Assembly: GCA_021324185.1 (NCBI GenBank) | Contig: JAJPJN010000045.1 | Span: forward strand, 1 to 55,111 | Source of the DNA: Terriglobia bacterium | Lineage (GTDB): Bacteria; Acidobacteriota; Terriglobia; Bryobacterales; Bryobacteraceae | Length of the DNA: 55,111 bases | Direction of reading: 5' to 3' | In this document: in pieces, positions 28,543-48,332 of the stretch | Numbering within the stretch: position 1 is the first letter of the stretch | How the letters are laid out: the number at the start of each line of letters is the position of its first letter | Position numbers and translations under genes: made by a program | Notes under the pieces: generated by a model | Seen by the model: only the letters and a program-made list of their open reading frames with translations | Database searches by the model: none | Told to the model about the DNA's origin: nothing

Positions 28543-29514
28543 ATGCTGGCTCCCAATAGTCGCATCTTTGTAGCTGGCCATCGCGGTTTGGCCGGATCAG
28601 CCATTGTCCGGCGCCTCAGTGCGGCCGGATTCAAGAATCTTCTTTTGCGAACGAGAAGCGAGCTCGACCTCACCTGCCGCGCCGAAGTCGAGCGGTTTTT
28701 CGAACAGGAACGGCCGGAGTACGTATTCTTAGCGGCTGCCAAGGTGGGCGGCATCTTAGCCAACAGCACATACCCGGTGGAATTTCTCCGCGACAATCTT
28801 GCTATTGAGCTCAACGTCATCGATTGCGCGTATCGCTCGGGAGTCAAAAAATTGCAGTTCCTGGGTTCTTCCTGCATTTACCCTAAACTGGCGCCGCAGC
28901 CGCTCAAAGAAGACTATCTGCTTAGCGGGCCGCTTGAACCGACGAACGAATTCTATGCCATTGCCAAAATCGCCGGAATCAAGTTGTGCCAGGCGTACCG
29001 GGCACAATACGGATTCCATGCCATCAGCCTGATGCCGACTAATCTCTACGGACCCGGCGACAATTTTGATTTGGCAAACTCCCACGTACTTCCCGCGCTG
29101 ATGCGCAAAATACATGAGGCGCATGTGCGCGGTGATTCCAAGGTGGTCATCTGGGGAACAGGAAAGCCGAGGCGTGAATTCCTGCACGTTGATGACCTGG
29201 CGGATGCAGCCTTGTTTCTAATGCAGCATTACGATGAGCCGGAGATCGTGAACGTTGGAACAGGGGAAGATATCGCTATCGCAGATCTGGCCGCAATGCT
29301 TGGACGTGTGATTGGCTTTCAAGGGAAGTTTGTGTATGATTCGTCCAAGCCAGATGGAACGCCACGCAAACTGCTTGATGTGAGCCGGCTCGAAGCGCTT
29401 GGCTGGAAGCATGGAATATCGTTGCAGCACGGCATTGAAGATACATACCGCTGGTTTCTCGACTATTGCGCGCCGTCAGAATCGGCTTGTTTGCCCGAGC
29501 GAGCGCTTACTTAG
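28543..29514 (+). CDS. fcl: GDP-L-fucose synthase
   Basis: A 323-residue epimerase/reductase that turns GDP-4-keto-6-deoxy-D-mannose into GDP-L-fucose with NADPH. The N-terminal glycine motif is VAGHRGLAGSAIVRRL; the conserved GSSCIYP and the YAIAKIAGIKLC (Tyr-X3-Lys) active site follow, then NLYGPGDNFD. The reading frame is open far upstream to 28213, but that extension lies inside gmd in another frame and lacks family similarity, so ATG 28543 is the start. Together with gmd this gives a complete route from GDP-mannose to GDP-L-fucose. The stop overlaps the paaJ stop tail-to-tail by 4 bases (29511-29514). Confidence 0.96.
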   Translation: MLAPNSRIFVAGHRGLAGSAIVRRLSAAGFKNLLLRTRSELDLTCRAEVERFFEQERPEYVFLAAAKVGGILANSTYPVEFLRDNLAIELNVIDCAYRSGVKKLQFLGSSCIYPKLAPQPLKEDYLLSGPLEPTNEFYAIAKIAGIKLCQAYRAQYGFHAISLMPTNLYGPGDNFDLANSHVLPALMRKIHEAHVRGDSKVVIWGTGKPRREFLHVDDLADAALFLMQHYDEPEIVNVGTGEDIAIADLAAMLGRVIGFQGKFVYDSSKPDGTPRKLLDVSRLEALGWKHGISLQHGIEDTYRWFLDYCAPSESACLPERALT

Positions 29515-30716
29515 CTTCGTTCCAAAATCATCGCGATTCCCTGCCCTACGCCAATGCACATCGTGCAGAGAGCATATCGCGCCTGCATCTTTTCGAGCTG
29601 ATAGACAGCGGTTGCGATTAAGCGCGCGCCGCTGGCTCCGAGGGGGTGGCCGATGGCAATGGCGCCCCCCGCCGGGTTGACGAAATCGGCATCTTCGGGC
29701 AGTCCAATTTCGCGCAGCACGGCAACAGCTTGTGATGCGAAGGCCTCGTTTAATTCAACCAGGTTGATGTCGCTCAATTGCAGCCCGGCTTTCGCCAGGA
29801 CTTTGCGCGTGGCCGGAGCCGGAGCGATGCCCATAATGCGCGGCGCAACTCCGACGACCGCCGATGTGACGACGCGAGCCTTGGGCCGCAGCGCGTATTT
29901 GCGAACGGCTTCTTCGCTCGCAACCAGCACAGCCGCCGCGCCATCGTTGATGCCCGATGCATTGCCGGCGGTTACCGTGCCGTTCGGTTTCACGACGGGC
30001 TTGAGCTTCGAAAGTGCTTCAAGCGTTGTATCGGGACGCGGGTGCTCATCCGTATCGAAGATTTTAGGAACCCCCTTCTTTTGCGGAATTTCGACCGGAA
30101 TGATTTCGCAACGGAAGAAGCCTTCGTCATGAGCGCGCTTCCATCGTTGCTGGCTGCGCAGAGCAAAGGCATCCTGGTCCTCGCGTGAAATGTGAAACTC
30201 TTCCGCTACGTTTTCTGCCGTCTGCGGCATCGAATCGACTCCGTACTTCGCCTTCATGACAGGATTAATAAATCGCCAGCCGATTGTGGTGTCGAAGGCA
30301 TCAATATTGCGCGCAAAGCCTGTTTCAGATTTGCCGATGACGAATGGCGCGCGCGACATGCTTTCCACACCGCCCGCGATCACCAGGTCCATATCTCCCA
30401 CCTGAATGGCGCGCGCTGCGGTTGCCACGGCATCCATGCTCGATCCGCAGAGCCTGTTTATGGTGGCGCCAGGCACGCCAACGGGCAGTCCGGCCAGCAA
30501 TGCGGCCATGCGGCCCACATTGCGGTTATCTTCGCCGGCTTGGTTTGCGCAGCCGAAAATGACGTCGTCCACGGCCGCCCAGTCGACCCGCTGATTGCGC
30601 TGCATCAGCGCACGGATTGGGAGGGCCGCCAAGTCATCGGTGCGGATGGCCGAAAGCGACCCGGCATGGCGGCCGAACGGGGTGCGCAGCGCGTCACAGA
30701 CATAAGCCTCGTTCAC
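29511..30716 (-). CDS. paaJ: 3-oxoadipyl-CoA / 3-oxo-5,6-dehydrosuberyl-CoA thiolase
   Basis: A 401-residue thiolase, the same length as E. coli PaaJ. It cleaves the beta-keto CoA intermediates of phenylacetate breakdown to acetyl-CoA and, finally, succinyl-CoA. Visible are the nucleophile Cys in NRLCGSSMDA, the GHPLGASGAR His motif, and the C-terminal Cys in CTMCIGVGQG. The frame opens at GTG 30737, but an AGGAGG sits 5 bases before the GTG at 30716, which also gives a GTGA overlap with the paaH stop, so 30716 is chosen. It is the last gene of the phenylacetate operon. Confidence 0.94.
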   Translation of the reverse strand: MNEAYVCDALRTPFGRHAGSLSAIRTDDLAALPIRALMQRNQRVDWAAVDDVIFGCANQAGEDNRNVGRMAALLAGLPVGVPGATINRLCGSSMDAVATAARAIQVGDMDLVIAGGVESMSRAPFVIGKSETGFARNIDAFDTTIGWRFINPVMKAKYGVDSMPQTAENVAEEFHISREDQDAFALRSQQRWKRAHDEGFFRCEIIPVEIPQKKGVPKIFDTDEHPRPDTTLEALSKLKPVVKPNGTVTAGNASGINDGAAAVLVASEEAVRKYALRPKARVVTSAVVGVAPRIMGIAPAPATRKVLAKAGLQLSDINLVELNEAFASQAVAVLREIGLPEDADFVNPAGGAIAIGHPLGASGARLIATAVYQLEKMQARYALCTMCIGVGQGIAMILERS

Positions 30717-32005
30717 TGCGTCCTCCTGATTCGCCACTCGAGCGGTCCAAGCGGATAATTCACTCCTTTGCGCATCGCGATGTTCAACGCCTCCTCTGTG
30801 CAGATGCCTTCGTTCACCGCCCTGCTCGCTTCTTCGGCTAACGCGCGAACGATGCGATTGACGATCATGCGCTCATTCGAAACGCGAGTTACGGCAAATC
30901 CGGCTGCTTGCAACGACGCAAGCGCATGCAGGTACACGTCCTCAGAACATCGCTTGAAGACTGCCACGCGCCGGGCGGTTCTGTAATCGAGCGCCAGGTC
31001 CACAATGACAGCTTCGCGTTGGCCGTCATCCTCGGTGATGGTAACGAGAATGCCGCCGTACTCACCTTTCGTGGCAAGCGCTTCGCGTACACCTGAGCCG
31101 TCCACGTTCAAATCAATTTTGGGCTCCGTGCCGGGCAGCACCGGTTGCTCATTCCCGCTGTATTCGTACCATCCGCGGCCGGTCTTGCGGCCCAGGCGTC
31201 CCGCATGCACAAGATCCTGTTGCAAAAGCGATGGCCGGAATCGAGGCTCGTAGAAAAAAGCTTCAAACATCGACTTCGTTACCGCAAAGTTCACGTCGTT
31301 GCCGATGAGGTCCATCAGTTCGAATGGCCCCATGCGGAATCCGCCGCATTCGCGCATGGCTGCGTCAATTGTCGGCGCAATCGCAACCCGTTCCTGCAGC
31401 ATTCTGAGCGCTTCAAGATAGAACGGTCGCGCTACGCGGTTCACGATAAATCCCGGACTCGATTTCACATGCACGGGGGTTTTACCCCAGGCCTTCGCGG
31501 CCGCAAAGATCGTTTCGGCGCAAGGGGGATCGGTCGCGAGCCCGCTTACAACTTCTACTAATTCCATCAGCGGAGCCGGATTGAAAAAATGCATGCCTAC
31601 CACGCGGCCGGGGTTCTGCAGCCTGCCCGCAATTGCCGTAATCGAAATCGAAGACGTGTTTGTGGCCAAAATGCAATCGCTTGCCACGACCGCTTCGAGC
31701 TTTCCGAAGACGTCGCGCTTCGCTTCGAGATCTTCGAGGACGGCTTCAATGACGAGCCGCGCAGGGGCGAGATCTTCCCTTGATGCTGCGGCTCTGATTT
31801 GCGCGTTCGCGGCGGCGTGCGCGCTCAGCTTGCCTTTCGCGACAAGCTTCTGGAGATTATTTCTGATATCGCTGATTGCTTTTGCAACTACGTCTGCTCT
31901 GATGTCGAATAGCAGAACAGGATGGCCGGCGGCTGCCGCCACCTGCGCGATGCCCGCTCCCATGGTTCCCGCGCCGACCACAGCGATTGTGTCCCCAGGC
32001 GCCAT
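30713..32005 (-). CDS. paaH: 3-hydroxyacyl-CoA dehydrogenase
   Basis: A 430-residue NAD-dependent dehydrogenase for the 3-hydroxyadipyl-CoA step of phenylacetate degradation. The Rossmann motif VVGAGTMGAGIAQVAA lies at residues 9-24; HFFNPAPLMELVE, SPGFIVNRVARP and a second C-terminal helical domain (YPLGPLEWRI) follow as in PaaH/FadB-type enzymes. It is somewhat shorter than E. coli PaaH (475). Its ATG at 32005 overlaps the stop of paaG by one base (TAATG), and its own stop overlaps the paaJ start, so translational coupling is likely on both sides. Confidence 0.93.
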   Translation of the reverse strand: MAPGDTIAVVGAGTMGAGIAQVAAAAGHPVLLFDIRADVVAKAISDIRNNLQKLVAKGKLSAHAAANAQIRAAASREDLAPARLVIEAVLEDLEAKRDVFGKLEAVVASDCILATNTSSISITAIAGRLQNPGRVVGMHFFNPAPLMELVEVVSGLATDPPCAETIFAAAKAWGKTPVHVKSSPGFIVNRVARPFYLEALRMLQERVAIAPTIDAAMRECGGFRMGPFELMDLIGNDVNFAVTKSMFEAFFYEPRFRPSLLQQDLVHAGRLGRKTGRGWYEYSGNEQPVLPGTEPKIDLNVDGSGVREALATKGEYGGILVTITEDDGQREAVIVDLALDYRTARRVAVFKRCSEDVYLHALASLQAAGFAVTRVSNERMIVNRIVRALAEEASRAVNEGICTEEALNIAMRKGVNYPLGPLEWRIRRTQ

Positions 32006-32790
32006 TAATGACCGGCGAACTTCGGTGGGCGTTTTTCGAGAAACGCCGCAACCCCTTCGCGGAAATCTGCCGAACGGCCGAGCACGCGCATGGTATCGCG
32101 CTCAAAATCGAGTTGCTCATCAAGCGAACGCTGGCCCGACGAATAGATCGCCTGCTTGATACGCGCCAAGCCCATCGTAGGCGCGGCAGCTAATTGCGCC
32201 GCAAGTTTCTCAACCGTACCCGCAAACTCCGCATCATCCACACACTTCCAGATCAGGCCCCATTCCTCTGCTTGCTCAGCCGAAACTTTCTCGCCAAGCA
32301 AAGCCATTCCCATAGCGCGCGCCGTTCCAATCAGCCGCGGAAGAAAATAGGTGCCGCCCGTATCGGGAATCAGACCAAGCTTGCAAAATGATTCGATAAA
32401 GCTGGCCGACTTCGCCGCGATTACCAGATCACACGCGAAAGCGAGATTCGCTCCGGCCCCTGCAGCCACTCCATTGACAGCAGCAATGACCGGCAGCGGC
32501 AGGTTGCGCAAGCGCCTGACAAGCGGCGCATAGTAATTCTCGATCGACGCCCCCAGATCCATCTCGCCAGCATTGACCGCGCGATCGCCTAAATCCTGGC
32601 CCGCGCAAAAACCTCGGCCCGCTCCTGCCAGCACCAGGACACGAACACTGCCATCCGCTTCGATTGCATTGAGCACATCGCGCAGTTCTTCATGCATCTG
32701 CACGTTGAAGCTGTTCAATTTGTCCGGACGGTTCAGCGTAATGCGCGCAATCGCGTCACGCACATTGAACAGGATAGTGGCCGAATTCAT
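32005..32790 (-). CDS. paaG: Oxepin-CoA forming ring isomerase (enoyl-CoA hydratase family)
   Basis: A 261-residue crotonase-fold enzyme, one residue shorter than E. coli PaaG and matching its characteristic words: [59 protein letters not shown] and [10 protein letters not shown]. PaaG isomerises ring-1,2-epoxyphenylacetyl-CoA to oxepin-CoA and also shifts double bonds later in the pathway. The ATG at 32790 overlaps the stop of the paaY-like gene (ATGA). No second crotonase (PaaF, dehydroadipyl-CoA hydratase) is in the cluster, so that step must be done elsewhere or by this enzyme. Confidence 0.95.
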
Positions 32791-33404
32791 TGCTCCCTCG
32801 ACAGCTTCCTCGATGCGAACAGCGGCTTGAAATCGACGGGTGCAATGCGCGGCCGGTTTGCTTCGATTTCGCGCAGCGGTTCGGCAGCCTTCATGGTTTC
32901 AAGACTGCGAATCGCCAATCTTTGATACGTTTCGGTTCCGCGCTGCTTCCATGCAATCTCTTCTGCTGTTAGCTCGCGGACGACCTTCGCGGGAACGCCA
33001 AGAACCAGGCTCCGCGGCGGAATTTTATGGGCCGATTTGATGAACGACATGGCTGCAACGATGCTCATCTCGCCGATGTCGGCTTCGTCCATAACGACGG
33101 TATTCATGCCAATCATGGCGTTTCGGCCCACGCGGCAGCCGTGCAAAATCGCGCCGTGTCCAATATGGCCGTTCGTCTCTACAACCGTATCCATTCCCGG
33201 AAAACTGTGCATCACGCATGTGTCCTGCAGATTGCTGCCGTCCTCGAGAACAACTCGTCCGAAATCGCCGCGTAGCGATGCGTTCGGACCGACGTAGCAT
33301 CCCGCCCCGACGATGACATCCCCGATCAAAACCGCAGTCGGATGCAGAAAGGCGCTCGGATGCACGACCGGCACGATGCCATCAATTGAGAAGATTTGCG
33401 CCAT
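32787..33404 (-). CDS. paaY: PaaY-like hexapeptide-repeat protein (gamma carbonic anhydrase fold)
   Basis: A 205-residue left-handed beta-helix protein. Hexapeptide repeats run from about residue 15 to 150, and the three zinc-site histidines are in the usual places (MHSF, then HIGHG). The C-terminal part has the helical tail found in PaaY. PaaY is a trimeric metalloprotein reported to act as a thioesterase that removes dead-end CoA thioesters in phenylacetate breakdown. The operon position, between paaN and paaG with a 3-base gap and a 4-base overlap, supports this over a general carbonic anhydrase. Confidence 0.88.
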
Positions 33405-33407
33405 CGG

Positions 33408-35072
33408 CTAAACGTGCGCGCGCGTCTGCGCCACGCGAAAGCGGCTTGCCACAAAGGCAGTGTCGGTCAACGAAGCATTTGCCGCCGGATTCGCGCCGCT
33501 CGCGTGAAAGTCGCTGTAGGCCGCGGACTGATTGACGTAGACGCCTCCTGTCAAATTGCACGACAGTCCCACACCCGCTTCTGCGGCCACATCGGAAACT
33601 TCATCAAGGACTTTTTGATCGCTTGAGTAAACCGACATCGTAATCGCGCCATGCTTCGTCGCCGCCTGGCGCGCGAGTGTAGTGCTGTGCTGCGTATCGT
33701 TTGTCGCGATCACAAACGCAATCGGTCCAAAAAATTCGTGCATGAATTTAGACGGATCGCTTGCATCCATCTTCAGTATTAGCGGTGTTCGCACGCATGC
33801 ATGGGCGAATTGCGGATGCTGAAGCGGTTTACTATCTACGACCACTTCGCCCAGCCCGCGCGCCTGCTCAATGCGCTGCAAAATGCCGTCATTCTGGATC
33901 GCGCCAAGCACTTCGACAGCGCGGGCCGGATCACCTAAGAGCTTGTTCATGGCGTCGCCAATACCCGACGCGACCTGGTCAAAGCTCAGATGGCCCTCCG
34001 GCGTGTCAATGCCGTTTTTCGGGACATAGATGTTCTGCGGAGCCGTACACATCTGACCCGAATAAAGCGCAAGCGAAAAGGCGATGTTGCGCGCCATGCC
34101 TTTGAAATCGTTTGTCGAGTCAATGAGGATCTGGTTCACTCCCGCTTTTTCCGTGAACACCTGCGCCTGATGCGCATTCCGTTCCAGCCAGACTCCGTTT
34201 TCCGGACTACCCGTGAAATCGATCACCTTTATCTCTGGCCGCAGGGCCAGCTTTTGCGCCACATCGTCGCCCTTCTCGTGAGCGACTAGCGTGACCACGT
34301 TCGGATCGAATCCCGCTTCGCTTAGTACCTCACGCGCAACCTGAACCGTTATGGCGAGCGGCAAAATCGCGCCGGGATGCGGTTTCACGATAACAGCGTT
34401 TCCCGTCGCGAGGTTCGCAAACAGGCCTGGATAACTGTTCCAGGTGGGGAATGTACAGCAGCCAATCACCAGGCCAATGCCGCGCGGAACGATGCGATAT
34501 CGCTTCTCCATTTTGAGCGGCTCATTTTTGCCTTGCGGCTTTTCCCACATGGCCGTTCTTGGAATATGGCTCATCTCCAACCATGCGTACGCAACAGCTT
34601 CGACGCCGCGATCCTGCGCGTGCGGCCCGCCCGCCTGAAACGCCATCAGGAACGCCTGCCCGGATGTATGCATCACCGCGTATGCAATTTCGAAGCTGCG
34701 TTTATTCAAACGCGAAAGAATCTCGAGCGAAACACCGGACCACGTCTCCGGGCCTGCATTGCGCCACTGCGCTTCAGCTTTCTGTACGGCTGCAAGCAAC
34801 GTATCGAGATCCGGCTTTGGATATTTCACCCCCAGATCGATTCCAAACGGCGAACGTTCGCTGCCGGTTTCTCCGGCAGTTCCGGGCTGATCGATCGGAA
34901 ATGGCTTGTTGAGCAAGTTTTCAAATGCTCTTTTGCCGTCGTCGTTTGCTGTCTCGCCATAAGCCTTCGGGCTCGGCATTTCAGAGAACGCGCTCCAGTA
35001 GCCCCGCGAGTGAATCGCTTCAACAGCTTTATCCAACAGCGCTTTATGGCGCGCAAAAAAATCTTGTGGCAT
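33408..35072 (-). CDS. paaN: PaaN-type aldehyde dehydrogenase of phenylacetate degradation
   Basis: A 554-residue aldehyde dehydrogenase of the PaaN family, which oxidises 3-oxo-5,6-dehydrosuberyl-CoA semialdehyde after ring opening. The N-terminal SRGYWSAFSEMPSPKAYGE is typical of PaaN, and the active-site Cys is in YSGQMCTAPQN; FTGSPENG marks the cofactor region. Unlike E. coli PaaZ (681 residues), there is no C-terminal MaoC hydratase domain, so ring-opening hydrolysis of oxepin-CoA must come from another protein. It lies 4 bases from paaE and 3 from paaY. Specific function follows from family and operon context. Confidence 0.93.
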   Translation of the reverse strand: MPQDFFARHKALLDKAVEAIHSRGYWSAFSEMPSPKAYGETANDDGKRAFENLLNKPFPIDQPGTAGETGSERSPFGIDLGVKYPKPDLDTLLAAVQKAEAQWRNAGPETWSGVSLEILSRLNKRSFEIAYAVMHTSGQAFLMAFQAGGPHAQDRGVEAVAYAWLEMSHIPRTAMWEKPQGKNEPLKMEKRYRIVPRGIGLVIGCCTFPTWNSYPGLFANLATGNAVIVKPHPGAILPLAITVQVAREVLSEAGFDPNVVTLVAHEKGDDVAQKLALRPEIKVIDFTGSPENGVWLERNAHQAQVFTEKAGVNQILIDSTNDFKGMARNIAFSLALYSGQMCTAPQNIYVPKNGIDTPEGHLSFDQVASGIGDAMNKLLGDPARAVEVLGAIQNDGILQRIEQARGLGEVVVDSKPLQHPQFAHACVRTPLILKMDASDPSKFMHEFFGPIAFVIATNDTQHSTTLARQAATKHGAITMSVYSSDQKVLDEVSDVAAEAGVGLSCNLTGGVYVNQSAAYSDFHASGANPAANASLTDTAFVASRFRVAQTRAHV

Positions 35073-35076
35073 TCGG

Positions 35077-36192
35077 TTAACTGTCCTGATCGTAATCGAC
35101 CGTCACGTGATCGGTTACCGGGTAGCTCTGACAAGTCAGGATGAATCCGCGCGCCACTTCGTAATCTTCGAGCGCGTAATTCGCATCCATATCGACCTGG
35201 CCTTCGACAAGCCTTGCCCGGCAGGTTGCGCAGACGCCGCTCTTGCAGGAGTAGCGCACATCGATGCCGCGCGCCAGTGCCGCATCGAGAATCGTCTCAT
35301 TCCTCTGCATCGAAAACTGATGCAGGGCGCCGTCCATCATGAGCTTCACCTGGCATTCTGCGTTCTCGTCCAGTGCGGCTGCCTTGCGCCGGATCTGCTG
35401 CTCGTTTTCCTGCACTGTGAACAGTTCGATTTTGATGTGCGCGGGCGGCAACCCCATGGCCTTCAGGCGCGCGGTAATGCTGTCCACCATCTCCTGCGGG
35501 CCACACAGAAACACCTCATCTATGGCTTCGAACCGGCAAAAATGCCGCAACAGTTCTTCGGCTTTCTCGCCGTCGATGCGCCCGTTCAGCAGATCGACAT
35601 CCTGATGCTCACGCGTCATCACATGGATGAGGCTGAAGCGGTCGAGATAAATATCCTTCAATTCCGCCAGTTCTTCGCGAAACAGAATCGTGCTCGATGC
35701 ACGGTTGCCGTAGAAAAGCGTGAACCGGCTGTTGGGCTCGGTAAGGAGCGTCGTTTTGATGATGGACAGAATGGGGGTGATGCCGCTGCCCGCTGCGAAC
35801 GCAACATATTCTTTCGTATGAGCCGGCGAGAGTGGCACATGAAAACGGCCTTCGGGCGGCATGACTTCGAGCGTGTCGCCCGGTTTCGCGTGCTGCATGA
35901 GCCAGTTCGAAAAAATTCCGCCCGGCACGCGCTTCACCGCGACTCGCAACATACGATCCTGCACGGCGGAACAGATGGAATAGGAGCGGCGAACTTCCGC
36001 GCCATCAATTGCGGCGCGCAAGGTCACATACTGGCCCTGCGTGTAACGGAATTGTTCTTCTAGTTCCGGTGGAACATCGAAAACCACCGTAACCGCATCG
36101 CGCGTTTCGGGTTTAATTGCGCGAATCGTTAACGGAAAAAAGCGGCCTGTGGCTGCAGCCGCCGGTTGCTCTTCAATGGCGCTTGAAGGCAT
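35077..36192 (-). CDS. paaE: Phenylacetyl-CoA epoxidase reductase subunit
   Basis: A 371-residue reductase that passes electrons from NADPH to the PaaABCD oxygenase. A ferredoxin-reductase FAD domain is at the N-terminus (RRSYSICS for FAD), a nucleotide domain follows (AAGSGITPILSI, FYGNR, FLCGPQ), and a plant-type [2Fe-2S] domain ends the protein with Cys in YSCKSGVCATC and later LTCQSYP. The frame is open to 36312, but GGAG 7 bases before the ATG at 36192 and family length support 36192. The start overlaps the paaD stop by 20 bases. Confidence 0.95.
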   Translation of the reverse strand: MPSSAIEEQPAAAATGRFFPLTIRAIKPETRDAVTVVFDVPPELEEQFRYTQGQYVTLRAAIDGAEVRRSYSICSAVQDRMLRVAVKRVPGGIFSNWLMQHAKPGDTLEVMPPEGRFHVPLSPAHTKEYVAFAAGSGITPILSIIKTTLLTEPNSRFTLFYGNRASSTILFREELAELKDIYLDRFSLIHVMTREHQDVDLLNGRIDGEKAEELLRHFCRFEAIDEVFLCGPQEMVDSITARLKAMGLPPAHIKIELFTVQENEQQIRRKAAALDENAECQVKLMMDGALHQFSMQRNETILDAALARGIDVRYSCKSGVCATCRARLVEGQVDMDANYALEDYEVARGFILTCQSYPVTDHVTVDYDQDS

Positions 36193-36655
36193 CAAATGGC
36201 TCCAGGCAGGACAAGCATTGGTAGTGCGCTTTGCAGGGCGTCGAACCAAACCGGCTAACCAGCCTGGTTTCGACGGAACCGCATCGCGGGCACGCCGGCT
36301 TCGCGGCTTCAATCTGAACGAGAGAGCTAGCCGGCGGCGCGATTCCGTAATCGCGCAAGCGCTGCCTGGCTGCGTCGCTCATCCAGTCGGTGGTCCATGG
36401 CGGCGACAGTTCTGTCACGAGGTGGAGATGTTCGATTCCATGCTCCTTGGCAGACCTGCGAATCTCCTCCGCAATGGCATCCATCGCCGGGCAACCTGAA
36501 TAAGTCGGCGTGATCGTGATGGTGACCTCATCTTCATTCACCTGCACGTCACGAACAATGCCGAGATCAGTGATCGACAGAACCGGAATCTCCGGATCGG
36601 CGATTTTGGCCAGCCAACCCCAGACTCCTGTCGCGGTAGGACACGTTGCTACCAT
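36173..36655 (-). CDS. paaD: Phenylacetyl-CoA epoxidase subunit PaaD
   Basis: A 160-residue protein of the MIP18/SufT (DUF59) type. The N-terminal domain shows DPEIPVLSITDLGIVRDV and TYSGCPAMDAI, and the C-terminus has a four-Cys zinc-type module (CPRCGS, then CLSC). PaaD is needed for an active epoxidase and probably helps with metal-cluster assembly rather than catalysis. It overlaps paaC by 7 bases and paaE by 20, the arrangement of a translationally coupled operon. Confidence 0.95.
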   Translation of the reverse strand: MVATCPTATGVWGWLAKIADPEIPVLSITDLGIVRDVQVNEDEVTITITPTYSGCPAMDAIAEEIRRSAKEHGIEHLHLVTELSPPWTTDWMSDAARQRLRDYGIAPPASSLVQIEAAKPACPRCGSVETRLVSRFGSTPCKAHYQCLSCLEPFDAFKRH

Positions 36656-37401
36656 TGCGCTCCCGGGTAGGCTCGCTGCAAAAACTGCATTTCAGCGAGT
36701 AGATAACCTAATTTTTCGGTATGCACGCCACGCTTCCCGCCGCGCTGCATCCATTTCCCGGGCGGGACTTCGAGCGTAGCTTTCGCAAACGTTTTTTGGA
36801 GGTGCTCTGTCCATTTCGGACGCAACGCCTCGAGGTCAGCGCCGACACCCCTGCGAAGCATTTCGGCATCGATATCGTCCATCTCAAACAGCTCACCGGT
36901 GTACATCCAGAGATCGTCCACGGCATGTTGCATGCGGCGATGACTTTCTTCTGTTCCATCGCCCAGCCGCATGATCCAATCCGTGCTGCGCTCCAGATGA
37001 TACGTAACCTCCTTCAATGCCTTTTGTGCGATAGCGGCAATGCGCGAATCAGTCGATTGTTGCAGCGCGCTCAATAGATGAAAGTGCCACGTATCGAAAT
37101 AAAACTGGCGCGCCGTAGTCATTGCATAATCGCCATTCGGCTGCTCGACTAACAGGACATTGCGGAACTCGCCTGCATCGCGCAGAAACGCCAGCTTGTC
37201 TTCATCGCGGCCGGCCCCTTCCACTTCTCCTGCATAAGACAGCCAAAAACGCGCATGGCCCAGCAGATCGAGCGCGATGTTCGTCAGCGCGATGTCTTCT
37301 TCAAGCACTGGCCCATGGCCGCACCATTCAGACAAGCGCTGGCTGAGAATGAGGCAGTTATCGCCGAGCCGCAGTAGATATTCAACCAACGGTGCCGCCA
37401 T
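36649..37401 (-). CDS. paaC: Phenylacetyl-CoA epoxidase structural subunit PaaC
   Basis: A 250-residue ferritin-like, largely helical protein. PaaC partners PaaA in the epoxidase core but normally lacks the di-iron site. Typical words are LGDNCLILSQRLSEWCGHGP, FLRDAGEFRNVLLVEQPNGD, TYHLERSTDW and a C-terminal HTEKLGYLLAEMQFLQRAYPGAQW-like ending split here for length. Two bases separate it from paaB. Length matches the family. Confidence 0.95.
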   Translation of the reverse strand: MAAPLVEYLLRLGDNCLILSQRLSEWCGHGPVLEEDIALTNIALDLLGHARFWLSYAGEVEGAGRDEDKLAFLRDAGEFRNVLLVEQPNGDYAMTTARQFYFDTWHFHLLSALQQSTDSRIAAIAQKALKEVTYHLERSTDWIMRLGDGTEESHRRMQHAVDDLWMYTGELFEMDDIDAEMLRRGVGADLEALRPKWTEHLQKTFAKATLEVPPGKWMQRGGKRGVHTEKLGYLLAEMQFLQRAYPGAQW

Positions 37402-37403
37402 CG

Positions 37404-37685
37404 CTAGAGGTTCTTCACTTCCTCGGGTACTTCGTAGAACGTGGGGTGCCTATAGATTTTGCTATTGGCCGGCTCAAACAAGGGTTCTTTTTCACCCGGA
37501 CTGCTGGCCGTAATATCGGAGGATTTCACCACCCAGATGCTCACGCCTTCATTGCGGCGCGTATAAACATCGCGCGCGTTCTTGATCGCCATCTCAGCGT
37601 CGGGAGCGTGCAGGCTACCTACATGTTTGTGCGCCAGCCCGTGCTGGCTGCGAATAAAAATCTCCCAAAGCGGCCAATCGTTCAT
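37404..37685 (-). CDS. paaB: Phenylacetyl-CoA epoxidase subunit PaaB
   Basis: A 93-residue subunit that starts [14 protein letters not shown] and contains [16 protein letters not shown] and [11 protein letters not shown], all typical of PaaB. It is thought to bridge or stabilise the PaaAC complex. The frame is open 20 codons further upstream within paaA, but the ATG at 37685, overlapping the paaA stop as ATGA, matches family length and operon style. Confidence 0.95.
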
Positions 37686-38671
37686 GCGGCGGCTTTCTTC
37701 TGTGCGTGCTTGCGTGCATAAGCTGCGGCCGCTTCGCGCACCCACGCGCCTTGCTCGTGCGCCTCAATTCGAGCACGCAGACGTTCGCGGTTACAGGGGC
37801 CGTTTCCCTGAATGACGTTGTAAAACTCGTCCCAGTCGATCCTGCCGAAATCGTAATGCCCGCGCTCGGGATTCCACTTCAACTCCGGATCCGGGATCTT
37901 GAGGCCGAGATATTCGGCTTGCGGAACCGTCTGATCCACAAATTTCTGGCGCAGCTCGTCATTCGAAAATAGTTTGACCTTCCAGCGCATCGACTGCGCG
38001 CTGTGTTTCGAATCTGAGTCTGCCGGCCCATGCATCATCAGCGATGGCCACCACCAGCGGTTCAGCGCGTCCTGTGCCATCGCCTTTTGCTCCGGCGTAC
38101 CGCGGCAAAGGGCCAGCATGATGTCGAATCCTTGCCGGGTATGAAACGTTTCTTCTTTGCAGATCCGCACCATCGCGCGCGCATATGGGCCATAAGAGCA
38201 GCGGCAAATCGGGATCTGGTTAATGATGGCCGAGCCGTCCACCAGCCACCCGATCGCGCCGATATCAGCCCAAGTCAAGGTCGGATAATTGAAGATACTC
38301 GAGTATTTGGCTTTGCCGCTCAGCAGATCTTCAATAGTCTGCTCGCGCGTGACGCCCAGCGTCTCGACTGCACTGTAAAGGTAGAGCCCATGTCCGGCCT
38401 CATCCTGCACTTTGGCGAGCAGAATTGCTTTGCGCTTTAGCGTAGGCGCGCGCGTGATCCAGTTCCCTTCCGGCAACTGTCCGACGATTTCTGAATGTGC
38501 ATGCTGCGAAATCTGCCGGATCAGCGTCTTGCGGTACGCCTCCGGCATGAAATCCTTCGGCTCAATTTTTATACCTGCGTCGATGCGCTCCTGAAAGTGC
38601 TGCTCTTCAGGACTCATCTCGCCTGCGGGACGCACTCGCTCGGGACCTGCATCTACCATCTGTGCGTACAT
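37682..38671 (-). CDS. paaA: Phenylacetyl-CoA epoxidase catalytic subunit PaaA
   Basis: A 329-residue di-iron subunit that epoxidises the aromatic ring of phenylacetyl-CoA. Iron-ligand motifs are visible as [11 protein letters not shown] and [12 protein letters not shown] (E-X2-H pairs). The N-terminal [22 protein letters not shown]-like region, the substrate-side words and the length match PaaA. It is the first of the five epoxidase genes, 20 bases after the E1 gene, and overlaps paaB by 4 bases. Confidence 0.97.
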
Positions 38672-38691: not shown

Positions 38692-40761
38692 TTAGATCGC
38701 CAGCAGTTCCTGCATCCTGGCCGCAATGGTTTCTACACCCGGCAGAATGGCTTTGAGCAAGCCGGTGTTGTAGGGCAAGGGAACGTCAGGAACTGCTAAT
38801 CGGTCAATCGGGGCATCGAGATGGAAGAAACACTCCTTACTCACGACTGCGGCGACCTCCGCGCCAAAGCCGGCCGTGATTGTATCTTCATGCACGATGA
38901 GGCAGCGGTGCGTTTTATTCACGGATGCGATGACAGCCTGGCGATCCCACGGAACAATCGTTCTGAGATCGATCACTTCGATAGATGCGTTCGTGTTTTC
39001 CGCAGCCGCCAGGCAGCGCTCCACCATCGCGCCCCAGGTGATTACGGACAGCTTGTCCCCGCTGCGCACCACGCTGGCAACGCCTAGCGGCAAAAGAAAC
39101 TCGTCGCCCGGATAAGGCCGCCGCGCCGAGGGCGCATCCAGCAAAGCGCGGTGCTCAAAAAAGATGCTTGGATTCGGACTGCGCAGAGCCGTCCGCAACA
39201 GACCCACCGCATCTTCGGCATTTGATGGCATAATGACCTGCCAGCCGGGAGCATGCGCGAACGTCACTTCACTCGAGACGCTGTGCCACGGGTCACCGCA
39301 TTTGCTGAACCCGCCGGGCATGCGCACCACAATCGGCGCGCTAAACTTTCCCGCCGTACGCCAGCGCATTGTTCCGCAATCGTCCAATTGCTCCGCCGCC
39401 GGCTCGGCGTATTTACGAAATTGAATTTCGGCCACCGGCCGCAAGCCCGCCAATGCCAGCCCTACCGCGTTACCAATAATTCCTTCTTCGGAAAGGCTGG
39501 TATCGAAGACGCGATCCTCACCGAAGGTACGCTGCAGATCCAATGTCGCTGCATGCACGCCACCTTTCGGCCCCACGTCCTCACCAAAGATGAGCACTTT
39601 GGGGTTGACTCGCAACTCGTGTTCGAGCGTGCGCCGGATGGCATCGAGCATATTGATGCGTGCGCGCTCCGGCTGAAATTTTGATTGCGGCTGAGTATTT
39701 TGGGCAAACAGAAAGTAGGTCGCGCGGGAAGGATCCGGCTCGGGCCGCGCCGAAGCCTCTTCCAGAGCGCGTTGCACTTCGATTTCTGCGTCCTGTTCCA
39801 GCGAGTGCCATTCATCCTCGGGAAGGAATGCCGGAACCAGATATCGTTTCAGAGCGGGTAGTGGATCTTTGGCGCGCTCGGCATTCAGCAATTCCGGCCT
39901 TTTGTAAGCCTGGGTGTCCTGTCCGGAATGCCCGCTCAAGCGCGGCACAATGAGTCTCAAAAGCACCGGGCCTTCGTCTGCCCGCACCATGGTGACAGCT
40001 TCACGCACCAATTGCGCGGCTTCGGCGGGATTCCATCCATCGCCGGAAAGCACCGTCAGATTGCGAAAGGCTGCCAGGTTTGCCGCGATATCGCCGCCCG
40101 GCGTCTGCTTCGACGCAGGCACCGAAATCCCGAAGCCGTTGTCTTCGATGTAGAAGAGGATCGGCAGGCGCTCGGTTGTAGCGGTATTCAGAGCGGACCA
40201 GAATCCGTTCGTGGCAACAGATCCGTCGCCACCGGCGGCAACTGCTATCGCGCCGCGATAACTTTTATCGCCCAACGTTTCAGAGTAGTAGCGAATCGCA
40301 CGAGCCCAGCCCGCCGTCATGGTGTATTGTGTACCGACGCCGCCCGCCATCGGCAGAACAATCGGACCATCCGCACGCGGCAGGTTGAAAACTACCCCTA
40401 TGTCGCGCCCATCACTCACTCCGCCCGATTTCGCCATATCGCTTGCCAGCGCATCCGTTAACGTCAAGCCGAGCGTCAGCAACAGCGGGCGGCAGCGATA
40501 ATAGGCGCCTACCGCATCATGCGTTTCCACGAGCAGTGTCCCGAGCAGTGCCTGGCCCAGTTCATGCCCGCGCGCCGAAAACTGATACAGAACTTTCTTC
40601 TCAGGAAACAGCCTGGTCTCTTCAAGCAGATCCAGCGCGCGGGAACACAGGCATATTCTCGCCACTTTACGCCAGTCAAAATGCGGATCGACTGAACGTA
40701 AGACTGTAGTCGAAGCTTGGCTGCGCTGCTCTTCGAGCGCTACTGAAGTCGAAAGGCCCAT
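38692..40761 (-). CDS. Fused 2-oxoacid dehydrogenase E1 alpha-beta
   Basis: A 689-residue thiamine-diphosphate enzyme with both E1 subunits in one chain. The alpha part (1-~360) has the TPP motif GGDGSVATNGFW through EDNGFGIS. The beta part (~370-689) has FGEDVGPKGGVHAAT, DTSLSEEGIIGNAVGLALAG and MPGGFSKCGDPWHS-type words of branched-chain/pyruvate E1 beta. E1 decarboxylates a 2-oxoacid and transfers the acyl group to an E2 lipoyl arm; E2 and E3 are not in the window. It lies 7 bases from the aminotransferase gene and 20 from paaA. Family reading is firm; phenylpyruvate as substrate is inferred from the operon. Confidence 0.9.
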   Translation of the reverse strand: MGLSTSVALEEQRSQASTTVLRSVDPHFDWRKVARICLCSRALDLLEETRLFPEKKVLYQFSARGHELGQALLGTLLVETHDAVGAYYRCRPLLLTLGLTLTDALASDMAKSGGVSDGRDIGVVFNLPRADGPIVLPMAGGVGTQYTMTAGWARAIRYYSETLGDKSYRGAIAVAAGGDGSVATNGFWSALNTATTERLPILFYIEDNGFGISVPASKQTPGGDIAANLAAFRNLTVLSGDGWNPAEAAQLVREAVTMVRADEGPVLLRLIVPRLSGHSGQDTQAYKRPELLNAERAKDPLPALKRYLVPAFLPEDEWHSLEQDAEIEVQRALEEASARPEPDPSRATYFLFAQNTQPQSKFQPERARINMLDAIRRTLEHELRVNPKVLIFGEDVGPKGGVHAATLDLQRTFGEDRVFDTSLSEEGIIGNAVGLALAGLRPVAEIQFRKYAEPAAEQLDDCGTMRWRTAGKFSAPIVVRMPGGFSKCGDPWHSVSSEVTFAHAPGWQVIMPSNAEDAVGLLRTALRSPNPSIFFEHRALLDAPSARRPYPGDEFLLPLGVASVVRSGDKLSVITWGAMVERCLAAAENTNASIEVIDLRTIVPWDRQAVIASVNKTHRCLIVHEDTITAGFGAEVAAVVSKECFFHLDAPIDRLAVPDVPLPYNTGLLKAILPGVETIAARMQELLAI

Positions 40762-40768
40762 TCGGAAG

Positions 40769-41728
40769 TTAAGCCGGTTGCGCGATCAGAGCATCCTTAT
40801 ACACGGGCCATAGCCAGTGCCGGTAAGCGGGGATGCGGCCGCGCGCGGCGTCTCCATATAAAGAGCGTATCTTTTCCGTAACCGGACCCATTTCGCCCTT
40901 TCCTACCGGACGGTGATCCACTTCCACAATGGGCGCCACCTCGACTGCCGTCCCCACAAAAAAGACCTCATCGCAAACGTAGAGCTCGCTGCGGTCAATC
41001 GAGCGCTCCACCACATCCATTCCTAATTCATTGCGCGCCAGTTCCATTACGCTCGCCCGGGTAATTCCTTCCAGGATGTTATCAGTAGCGGGCGGCGTAA
41101 TCAGCTTGCCTTTGCGCAGCATAAAAATATTGCACGTGGCGCCCTCGGCAACATGGCCGTCCTGATTCAAAAAGATCGCCTCGTCGTGGCCGTTGTGGCG
41201 CGCCTCGTCACCCGCCAGGACACTGTTCACGTACGAACCACAGATCTTCGCACGGCCGGGAATCATGGTGTCGTCAATGCGCCGCCACGAGACCACACCC
41301 GCTTTCAGCCCCTTTGTGTTTTCAAAATAGCTGCCAAAGGGAATGGCGATGATTGAATACGCATCGTTGTCATCGGCCGCAACGCCGATGCGCGCCGAAG
41401 CCTTATAGGCGATGGGGCGCACATAAACGTTCGTTTGAAAATCGTTGCGGCGGCAGAGTTCGGCGGTGATCTCGCAAAGCTCCTCGGCGGAGGGGGGAAC
41501 AGCGATTCGGAGGATGCCGCAGTTCTGCTTCCAGCGCTGATAATGATCCAGCAAACGGAACAGAAACAGATCGCGCGCCTGCCTGTCGTAGTAGCCGCGA
41601 ATTCCCTCGAATACGCCCGCGCCGTAGTGCAACGCGTGGGTCAGTATGTTTACGTTCGCCTCGCCCAGCCGGATAAAGCGGTTCTGGAACCACACAATGG
41701 TGTTCGGATTTGGCGCCTCGGTCTTCAT
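40769..41728 (-). CDS. ilvE: Branched-chain-type aminotransferase (class IV)
   Basis: A 319-residue PLP fold-type IV aminotransferase. Visible are the N-terminal HALHYGAGVFEGIRGY, the PLP lysine in GRAKICGSYVNS, NGHDEAIFLNQDGHVAEGATCNIF, and the phosphate loop near EGITRASVMELA. Such enzymes interconvert Leu/Ile/Val, and often Phe, with their 2-oxoacids. The frame is open to 41878, but AGGAGG 4 bases before the ATG at 41728 and family length fix the start. It is the first gene of the operon running into E1 and paaA-J. IlvE by family; an aromatic role is inferred from context. Confidence 0.9.
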   Translation of the reverse strand: MKTEAPNPNTIVWFQNRFIRLGEANVNILTHALHYGAGVFEGIRGYYDRQARDLFLFRLLDHYQRWKQNCGILRIAVPPSAEELCEITAELCRRNDFQTNVYVRPIAYKASARIGVAADDNDAYSIIAIPFGSYFENTKGLKAGVVSWRRIDDTMIPGRAKICGSYVNSVLAGDEARHNGHDEAIFLNQDGHVAEGATCNIFMLRKGKLITPPATDNILEGITRASVMELARNELGMDVVERSIDRSELYVCDEVFFVGTAVEVAPIVEVDHRPVGKGEMGPVTEKIRSLYGDAARGRIPAYRHWLWPVYKDALIAQPA

Positions 41729-41744
41729 GCAGCCTCCTGATTCG

Positions 41745-41786
41745 ATTCTAAGCCAAGTGAGCACCACATGGAAGTGGTGCTTACTT
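41745..41786 (-). promoter_or_regulatory. Promoter candidate with inverted repeat for the aminotransferase-paa operon
   Basis: On the minus strand TAGAAT (41745-41750) is a 5/6 match to a -10. An inverted repeat, arms AAGTGAGCACCAC (41755-41767) and GTGGTGCTTACTT (41774-41786) with a 6-base spacer, has 12 of 13 pairs matching and covers the place where a -35 should be. No good -35 is seen, so the repeat may bind a repressor or an activator. The predicted start is about 41738, next to the AGGAGG. Confidence 0.45.
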
Positions 41787-41886
41787 GTCCAACTTCTCAA
41801 AAAGGCCTGCCTTGGCCACTGGTCCAGTTCGGACGTGTGTTGTTTTGTTTGCGCCGGTGTTGAAGGTTTCGCTATCATGCGCTTGC

Positions 41887-42177
41887 ATGAAGCCCTCCGA
41901 AGCGCTCAGGGCCCACGGCAAGGAATTACGGCAACTAGTAAGCCGCTACAATGTTGCGCGGCCGCGCGTGTACGGCTCTGCCGTCACGGGCCGAAATGAC
42001 GAGGAGAGCGACCTCGATCTTTTGGTCGATCCTACGGAGTCAACAACTTTATTCACACTGGCGGGCTTGGAGCATGAGGCGCAACAGCTACTTGGCGTGC
42101 GTGTATCCGTGCTGACACCCGGTTTTTTGTCGCCTAAGTTCCGCGAGCAGGTTTTAGAGCAGGCTCAAGCATTGTGA
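41887..42177 (+). CDS. MNT-type nucleotidyltransferase (MntA-like), without HEPN partner
   Basis: A 96-residue minimal nucleotidyltransferase starting MKPSEALRAHGKEL. The signature GSAVTGRNDEESDLD is a GS-X10-DXD motif, identifying the polymerase-beta-type fold used by MNT antitoxins that AMPylate HEPN RNases. The frame is open to 41785, but ATG 41887 matches family length. The expected HEPN gene is not downstream: a GTG overlapping the stop (42174) opens only 17 codons, and the next gene on the other strand ends at 42285. It may be a solitary survivor of a HEPN/MNT module. Confidence 0.8.
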   Translation: MKPSEALRAHGKELRQLVSRYNVARPRVYGSAVTGRNDEESDLDLLVDPTESTTLFTLAGLEHEAQQLLGVRVSVLTPGFLSPKFREQVLEQAQAL

Positions 42178-48302: not shown

Positions 48303-48332
48303 TGTCAGGGACCGTGAGTCCGGTCCCTGACA
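48303..48332. terminator. Perfect 11-base inverted repeat between convergent genes
   Basis: TGTCAGGGACC (48303-48313) and GGTCCCTGACA (48322-48332) are exact inverted copies around an 8-base loop. The site is 11 bases past the M48 stop and 24 bases from the stop of the small gene on the other strand, where a bidirectional terminator belongs. No T-run follows on either strand, so it may instead be a repeated extragenic palindrome. Confidence 0.5.

Follow-up and report, generated by a model that had tools for sequence, protein, structure and literature searches.

The window, which is the whole 55,111-nt stretch of DNA analysed here, contains a cluster encoding 12 proteins on its minus strand. 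The operon opens with an ilvE-like class IV aminotransferase gene, continues with a fused alpha/beta E1 gene of a 2-oxoacid dehydrogenase and then runs through a set of paa genes (Table 1). A palindrome is located between the aminotransferase gene and a divergent nucleotidyltransferase-like gene on the plus strand, the start of which is probably that listed in Table 1. The latter is a lone NTP_transf_2 (MNT-like) gene that has no apparent partner before the next gene and that is possibly a toxin-antitoxin remnant.

Table 1 Features of the window around the palindrome and the aminotransferase-paa operon.
Feature	Position	Strand	Remark
Palindrome (putative operator)	41754-41787	.	arms 41754-41767 (CAAGTGAGCACCAC) and 41774-41787 (GTGGTGCTTACTTG), spacer 41768-41773; inverted-repeat analysis, genome count
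Conserved core GCACCAC-N6-GTGGTGC	41761-41780	.	retained in relatives
Probable -10 hexamer TAGAAT, aminotransferase promoter	41745-41750	minus	TANAAT 7-10 bases past core in 6/7 orthologous promoters
Shine-Dalgarno AGGAGG (strong)	41733-41738	minus	from sequence; followed by ATG at 41728
Aminotransferase class IV, ilvE-like	40769-41728	minus	first gene of operon
Fused alpha/beta E1 of 2-oxoacid dehydrogenase	38692-40761	minus	
paaA	37682-38671	minus	
paaB	37404-37745	minus	
paaC	36649-37401	minus	
paaD	36173-36655	minus	
paaE	35077-36312	minus	
paaN	33408-35072	minus	NCBIfam PaaN_2
paaY-like	32787-33404	minus	just under model cut-off
paaG	32005-32790	minus	
paaH-like 3-hydroxyacyl-CoA dehydrogenase	30713-32005	minus	under PaaH model cut-off
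3-oxoadipyl-CoA thiolase (paaJ/pcaF type)	29511-30737	minus	
Nucleotidyltransferase-like gene	41887-42177	plus	NTP_transf_2 (MNT-like)

The inverted-repeat analysis confirmed a palindrome with 14-nt arms that pair at 13 of 14 positions (93% complementary) around a 6-nt spacer. The original prediction, made from the letters of this DNA, had described a 13-base repeat of 12 pairs with a 6-base spacer; the repeat and its spacer stand, and the arms had been slightly under-counted. The interval given for it, 41745-41786, does contain the repeat but also takes in the TAGAAT hexamer of the probable aminotransferase promoter. Exactly 17 nt upstream of this hexamer lies the palindrome spacer, TTCCAT, in agreement with the proposed placement of the repeat on the -35 position. 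No -35 hexamer is recognisable at the window promoter when spacings of 16-18 are tried, the best candidate having 3/6 letters. With a start site expected 7 nt past TAGAAT, the centre of the palindrome lies some 32.5 nt upstream of that site, matching the distance of about 33 bases originally put forward, and 42 nt upstream of the start codon.

In a scan of the 55 kb for inverted repeats with 3-12-nt loops, the palindrome ties for the second-strongest place. The strongest inverted repeat in the same scan is found at 48303-48332 and has perfect 12-bp arms (TGTCAGGGACCG...CGGTCCCTGACA). Matches of the palindrome's strength number five in the real window and 0-6 in each of 10 Markov-resampled windows, a count in which a single place may be included more than once. 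By itself, the palindrome is within the chance level for a 55-kb window and is suggestive at most; its conservation exceeds chance.

The full palindrome pattern is present at one place in its own genome (4.70 Mb in 184 contigs, 96.85% complete) at up to three mismatches. The 16-base core is likewise present at one place at zero or one mismatch, with one more at two mismatches, and at up to three mismatches it has 29 places versus 31 for the backwards control. When an autoregulation site was sought among the 28 further loose matches in this genome, one was found to carry two mismatches, near an exported-protein-like frame, and the remaining 27 carry three. Across the family, the exact core occurs at one to three places in each of 65 genomes and is not found in 172. 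A core scan of the named genome collection returned 20 stretches, seven of which are from Acidobacteriota; the other 13 are spread over phyla and look like chance. Because of the low genome counts, the palindrome is not a dispersed repeat.

Conservation of the palindrome was examined at aminotransferase orthologues from 150 relatives. The best 30 loci were taken and one that starts at a contig edge (L029) was dropped, leaving 29, with same-genus orthologues defined by at least 65% identity (or as the window itself) and paralogues near 40% left out. The palindrome is present at all eight same-genus orthologues, with 12/12 core letters at seven and 10/12 at one (G010). Thus, the comparison with relatives that the original prediction had called for shows the repeat to be kept with the gene. 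None of the remaining 21 aminotransferase loci has the palindrome (core scores 6-9), and in most of the family members among them the aminotransferase gene lies directly behind another gene. With seven orthologous promoters aligned on the palindrome, each 7-base arm shows a mean pairwise identity of 0.96 against a fully diverged background: the spacer and the left flank are both at 0.29 and the right flank is at 0.30-0.36. A TANAAT hexamer follows 7-10 bases past the core in six of these seven promoters. Arm changes can be compensated: the arms read ACACCAC/GTGGTGT in G011 and GACCCAC/GTGGGTC at a phenylalanine hydroxylase (PAH) locus, L093. Conservation is limited to the inner 7-8 positions of each 14-base arm and leaves out the outer bases CAAGT/ACTTG. 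Behind the aminotransferase gene, E1 is observed in five of seven relatives and paa genes in three; loci L006, L008 and L017 do not extend far enough for paa to be seen. The site accompanies the aminotransferase gene in G011 as well, where no E1 or paa gene was found in the surrounding 19.5 kb.

The core consensus (A/G)CACCAC-N6-GTGGTG(C/T) recurs family-wide at genes of aromatic amino-acid catabolism. The core was searched first at one mismatch in 90 relatives and then exactly in 237 family genomes, 65 of which contain 73 exact sites, versus 40 for the backwards control (summed by hand). All 73 sites were fetched with their flanks, neighbours were assigned by tblastn with eight proteins, and the gene classes were picked after reading the loci. 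By this assignment, 51 of the 73 exact sites adjoin PAH, aminotransferase, CoA-transferase or ammonia-lyase genes. PAH is the commonest neighbour (25/73), either alone (17 sites) or divergent from homogentisate dioxygenase (HGD), with the site between the two genes (8 sites). A further 16 sites precede a CoA-transferase gene, seven of them also facing a class V aminotransferase-fold gene and two a cysteine-synthase-like gene; seven precede the aminotransferase gene and three an ammonia-lyase gene. The other 22 sites are at different genes, with four near an HlyD-type gene and 18 elsewhere. Among these 18, L112 (G057) and L122 (G070) are at matches of the PAH protein search and L123 looks like PAH by eye. 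The HlyD-type (membrane-fusion) gene belongs to four genomes of genus g25 (L150, L151, L153, L154), where the palindrome is 147-151 bp away from it, falls outside the aromatic regulon and may serve another regulator with a similar site.

An independent PAH protein search gave a comparable picture: among the best 30 of 40 matches, 25 loci have at least 10/12 core letters within 150 bp upstream, a score reached by 0.8% of resampled background sequences. Five of the 30 loci are below this threshold, including G056, in which an exact site is present slightly further in. One PAH clade has a diverged right arm. At the PAH promoters L096-L099, L102, L104 and L105, the left arm (A/G)CACCAC is kept and the right arm reads GAGGTTGT or GGGGTTGT, as if the operator had turned asymmetric. 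In the CoA-transferase operons, the next gene encodes a VorB-like alpha subunit in 14 loci; 13 of these continue with a gene for a fused beta/gamma subunit of a 2-oxoacid:ferredoxin oxidoreductase, and 11 of the 14 after that with an orthologue of the aminotransferase gene of the window. Outside the genus, 13 more aminotransferase loci were compared, at least two of the 13 falling short of the operon front; three have a 10/12 site shortly before the CoA-transferase gene. The PAH assignment passes the NCBIfam cut-off, and those of HGD, CoA-transferase and ammonia-lyase pass that of Pfam only. As the ammonia-lyase passes no NCBIfam cut-off, it may be a histidine enzyme. Two proteins, the aminotransferase and the oxidoreductase alpha subunit (VorB), pass NCBIfam models named for branched-chain substrates.

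Within the genus, 17 genomes were compared, several of which are incomplete: the aminotransferase orthologue is found in eight and a PAH match in six (one at 48% identity). The two genes occur together in one of the 17, G011, which carries the operator at both; in G005, PAH is present without it. The operator can stand at either kind of gene, as though alternative routes were under a single regulator. The original prediction did not recognise the site as the mark of a wider regulon.

Two-fold symmetry, conservation above background at orthologous promoters and recurrence before functionally linked genes in many genomes are all observed for this palindrome. On the strength of these comparisons, it is very probably the operator of a dimeric regulator that is encoded elsewhere and that would control phenylalanine and tyrosine breakdown in the family. 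Given such a regulon, the regulator is more probably a repressor than an activator, because the core overlaps either the -35/-10 spacer or the -35 at varying offsets. A repressor bound there would block RNA polymerase at the core promoter, and would be expected to release the DNA upon accumulation of an aromatic amino acid or of the corresponding 2-oxoacid. In the seven aminotransferase promoters, 7-10 bases separate the core from the -10, and the -35 scores 0-3/6. Many PAH promoters have their 17-base spacer occupied by the operator, with TTGACA running into the left arm. This hexamer is exact in five of 28 PAH promoters and has 5/6 letters in five more; the exact cases are not independent, because genus g48 supplies four of the five. 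Three of the six letters of TTGACA belong to the operator. The part outside it, TTG, averages 1.39/3 letters versus a background of 0.78 (largest of 2000 resamplings, 1.21), and the -10-like hexamer that abuts the right arm averages 3.0/6 versus 1.54 (largest, 2.18). In 10 of the 16 CoA-transferase operons, the site is 151-173 bp from the gene. MerR-type operators sit in an over-long -35/-10 spacer of 19-20 bp. An operator of this type does not match the PAH promoters that have TTGACA, in which the spacer is consistent with 17 bp.

The lack of a -35 at the seven aminotransferase promoters and the distance of the CoA-transferase sites mean that an activator also fits. In this arrangement, the regulon would be the same, and the protein, perhaps TyrR/PhhR-like with another half-site, would bind just upstream of the -10 and replace the missing -35. 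The TyrR box, TGTAAA-N6-TTTACA, is palindromic and shares the 6-6-6 layout. In the account of Leyn et al. (PMC5343134), TyrR/PhhR governs the same kind of genes in Proteobacteria. Furthermore, seven of the eight genomes with an aminotransferase site share a conserved candidate gene, which is short, enhancer-binding-protein-like and has a Fis-type end (pairs 67-77% identical). This protein family was derived from 19 PF18024-type genes, of which eight loci yielded no frame under the motif filter. An activator is nevertheless rather unlikely: the gap between site and -10 varies from 7 to 10 here and shrinks to as little as 0 at the PAH promoters, among which several have TTGACA. Moreover, the TyrR-type helix-turn-helix PF18024 has weak matches in 53 of 60 genomes, so that the family does not track the sites, and in the window's own genome one match is just over the cut-off of 27 bits (27.1) and two are under it (25.7 and 22.6). 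A general regulator of the use of 2-oxoacids from amino acids, both branched-chain and aromatic, for which PAH and the homogentisate genes would be only part of the targets, is suggested by the branched-chain label that NCBIfam gives the aminotransferase and by the naming of the oxidoreductase alpha subunit as VorB. This reading is improbable, given that PAH is the most frequent neighbour of the site and that the window's aminotransferase heads genes of phenylacetyl-CoA degradation.

The remaining explanations do not involve a regulon of this kind. As RNA, either strand of the palindrome gives a strong fold (-21.1 and -24.1 kcal/mol; z -4.8 and -5.4), with the odd position paired as G-U on the plus strand; this would suit an RNA hairpin, or a terminator, located in a leader or past the end of a gene. 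However, it is placed between divergent genes and upstream of a conserved -10, no terminator, Rfam match or tail was found there, the conservation is confined to the inner arm bases and the core recurs at other promoters, all of which make an RNA function very improbable. An intrinsic terminator, with a hairpin and T-tract at a gene end, was rejected, as the palindrome is flanked in the window by divergent genes on both sides. An operator for the divergent nucleotidyltransferase gene, as part of a possible toxin-antitoxin remnant, is suggested by the common intergenic region and the NTP_transf_2 match. It is equally hard to credit, since this gene has no match in the loci of seven relatives that keep the aminotransferase, and other genes occupy that side in the relatives (one common to G001 and G013, different ones in the others). 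Least plausible of all, to the point of being negligible, is the ordinary repeated palindrome that the original prediction had offered as an alternative, that is, a REP-like element or mobile-element end present here by chance. The genome-wide count that was proposed alongside it, now carried out, gives a single place for the full pattern and no excess of the core over its control, and the flanks and spacers of the sites are unrelated, yet the genes behind them are orthologous.

Having weighed these alternatives, we return to the operator of an unlinked regulator. No regulator is encoded among the 12 proteins of the cluster, as had been stated at the outset. Near the sites, no regulator family is common to three or more genera among clustered ORFs of at least 80 aa from 39 fetched loci and the window's right-hand 30 kb. 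PaaX is found in 0 of 54 family genomes (E 1e-5; in several, the best 57 candidates were scored). Together, these results support the suggestion that the site belongs to an unlinked regulator. Lrp/AsnC and IclR are each found in two of the eight genomes with an aminotransferase site (E 1e-6) and are each missing from six in all, including the window's own genome, in which the roughly 3% of sequence that is missing could be the cause of the absence. PaaX, Lrp and IclR are largely excluded as the regulator by this presence and absence in site-bearing genomes. In another family of the class (G125:C6:36265-37632), a PAH match is at most 0.5 kb from an Lrp/AsnC match on the opposite strand, which hints at a different regulator there. 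A published description of this operator was not found among titles and abstract openings, a search that most subscription journals fall outside and that leaves its absence unproven.

The genes of the window operon probably break down phenylalanine. From the co-marked genes and the operon content, the simplest reading is a route from phenylalanine through phenylpyruvate and phenylacetyl-CoA into the Paa pathway. The aminotransferase would yield phenylpyruvate; the E1, with E2 and E3 encoded elsewhere, would turn phenylpyruvate straight into phenylacetyl-CoA; and the Paa ring-opening route would then degrade this product. PaaK is absent among the 12 proteins of the cluster. This absence, in a paa cluster led by an aminotransferase and a fused E1, suggests a direct supply of phenylacetyl-CoA from phenylpyruvate, and in other genera a 2-oxoacid:ferredoxin oxidoreductase is encoded beside the same aminotransferase. 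In this way, the operator points to a Paa pathway that may be fed from phenylalanine via phenylpyruvate and not from phenylacetate. We tentatively suggest, as a possibility that we rate a little short of probable, that an undescribed unlinked regulator, not of the PaaX, Lrp or IclR kind and perhaps of a kind new to aromatic amino acids, governs how phenylalanine is used, whatever the route in a given genome: hydroxylation to tyrosine and homogentisate, transamination plus oxidoreductase, ammonia elimination, or transamination plus dehydrogenase into Paa. The operator would then follow the substrate while the pathway is swapped. Acidobacteriota are common soil bacteria in which, in our judgement, regulation is little charted, and an operator found across the family, with its targets defined, provides direct bait for the regulator.

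Several known systems share features with the one proposed here. PaaX and PaaR (TetR) are repressors of paa operons, and a repressor over a paa promoter is likewise the putative arrangement in the window. The site here differs in also preceding PAH and HGD, and PaaX was not detected in any of the family genomes surveyed. The NtrC site, TGCACC-N5-GGTGCA, has the GCACC half-site letters in common with the core; its spacing is off by five bases, and the promoters here look sigma-70-like. Relative to TyrR, the half-site differs (CACCAC here, TGTAAA in TyrR), the window's own genome has no convincing TyrR, and the sites also precede paa, 2-oxoacid oxidoreductase and ammonia-lyase operons. As outlined by Leyn et al. 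(2016, PMC5343134), TyrR/PhhR of gammaproteobacteria regulates aromatic amino-acid genes including phhAB, hmg and hpd, and HmgR (IclR), HmgS (MarR) and HmgQ (LysR) are local replacements of TyrR in that group. The sites at PAH and HGD, judged by position, resemble the former. The latter offer a parallel in which a non-orthologous regulator takes over the homogentisate pathway within a lineage (PMC5343134). HmgR itself does not match, in that the IclR family is missing from most of the genus members with an aminotransferase site. Because the TyrR half-site differs and IclR is missing, the sites are classed as a new regulon of a known kind, and not as a TyrR regulon.
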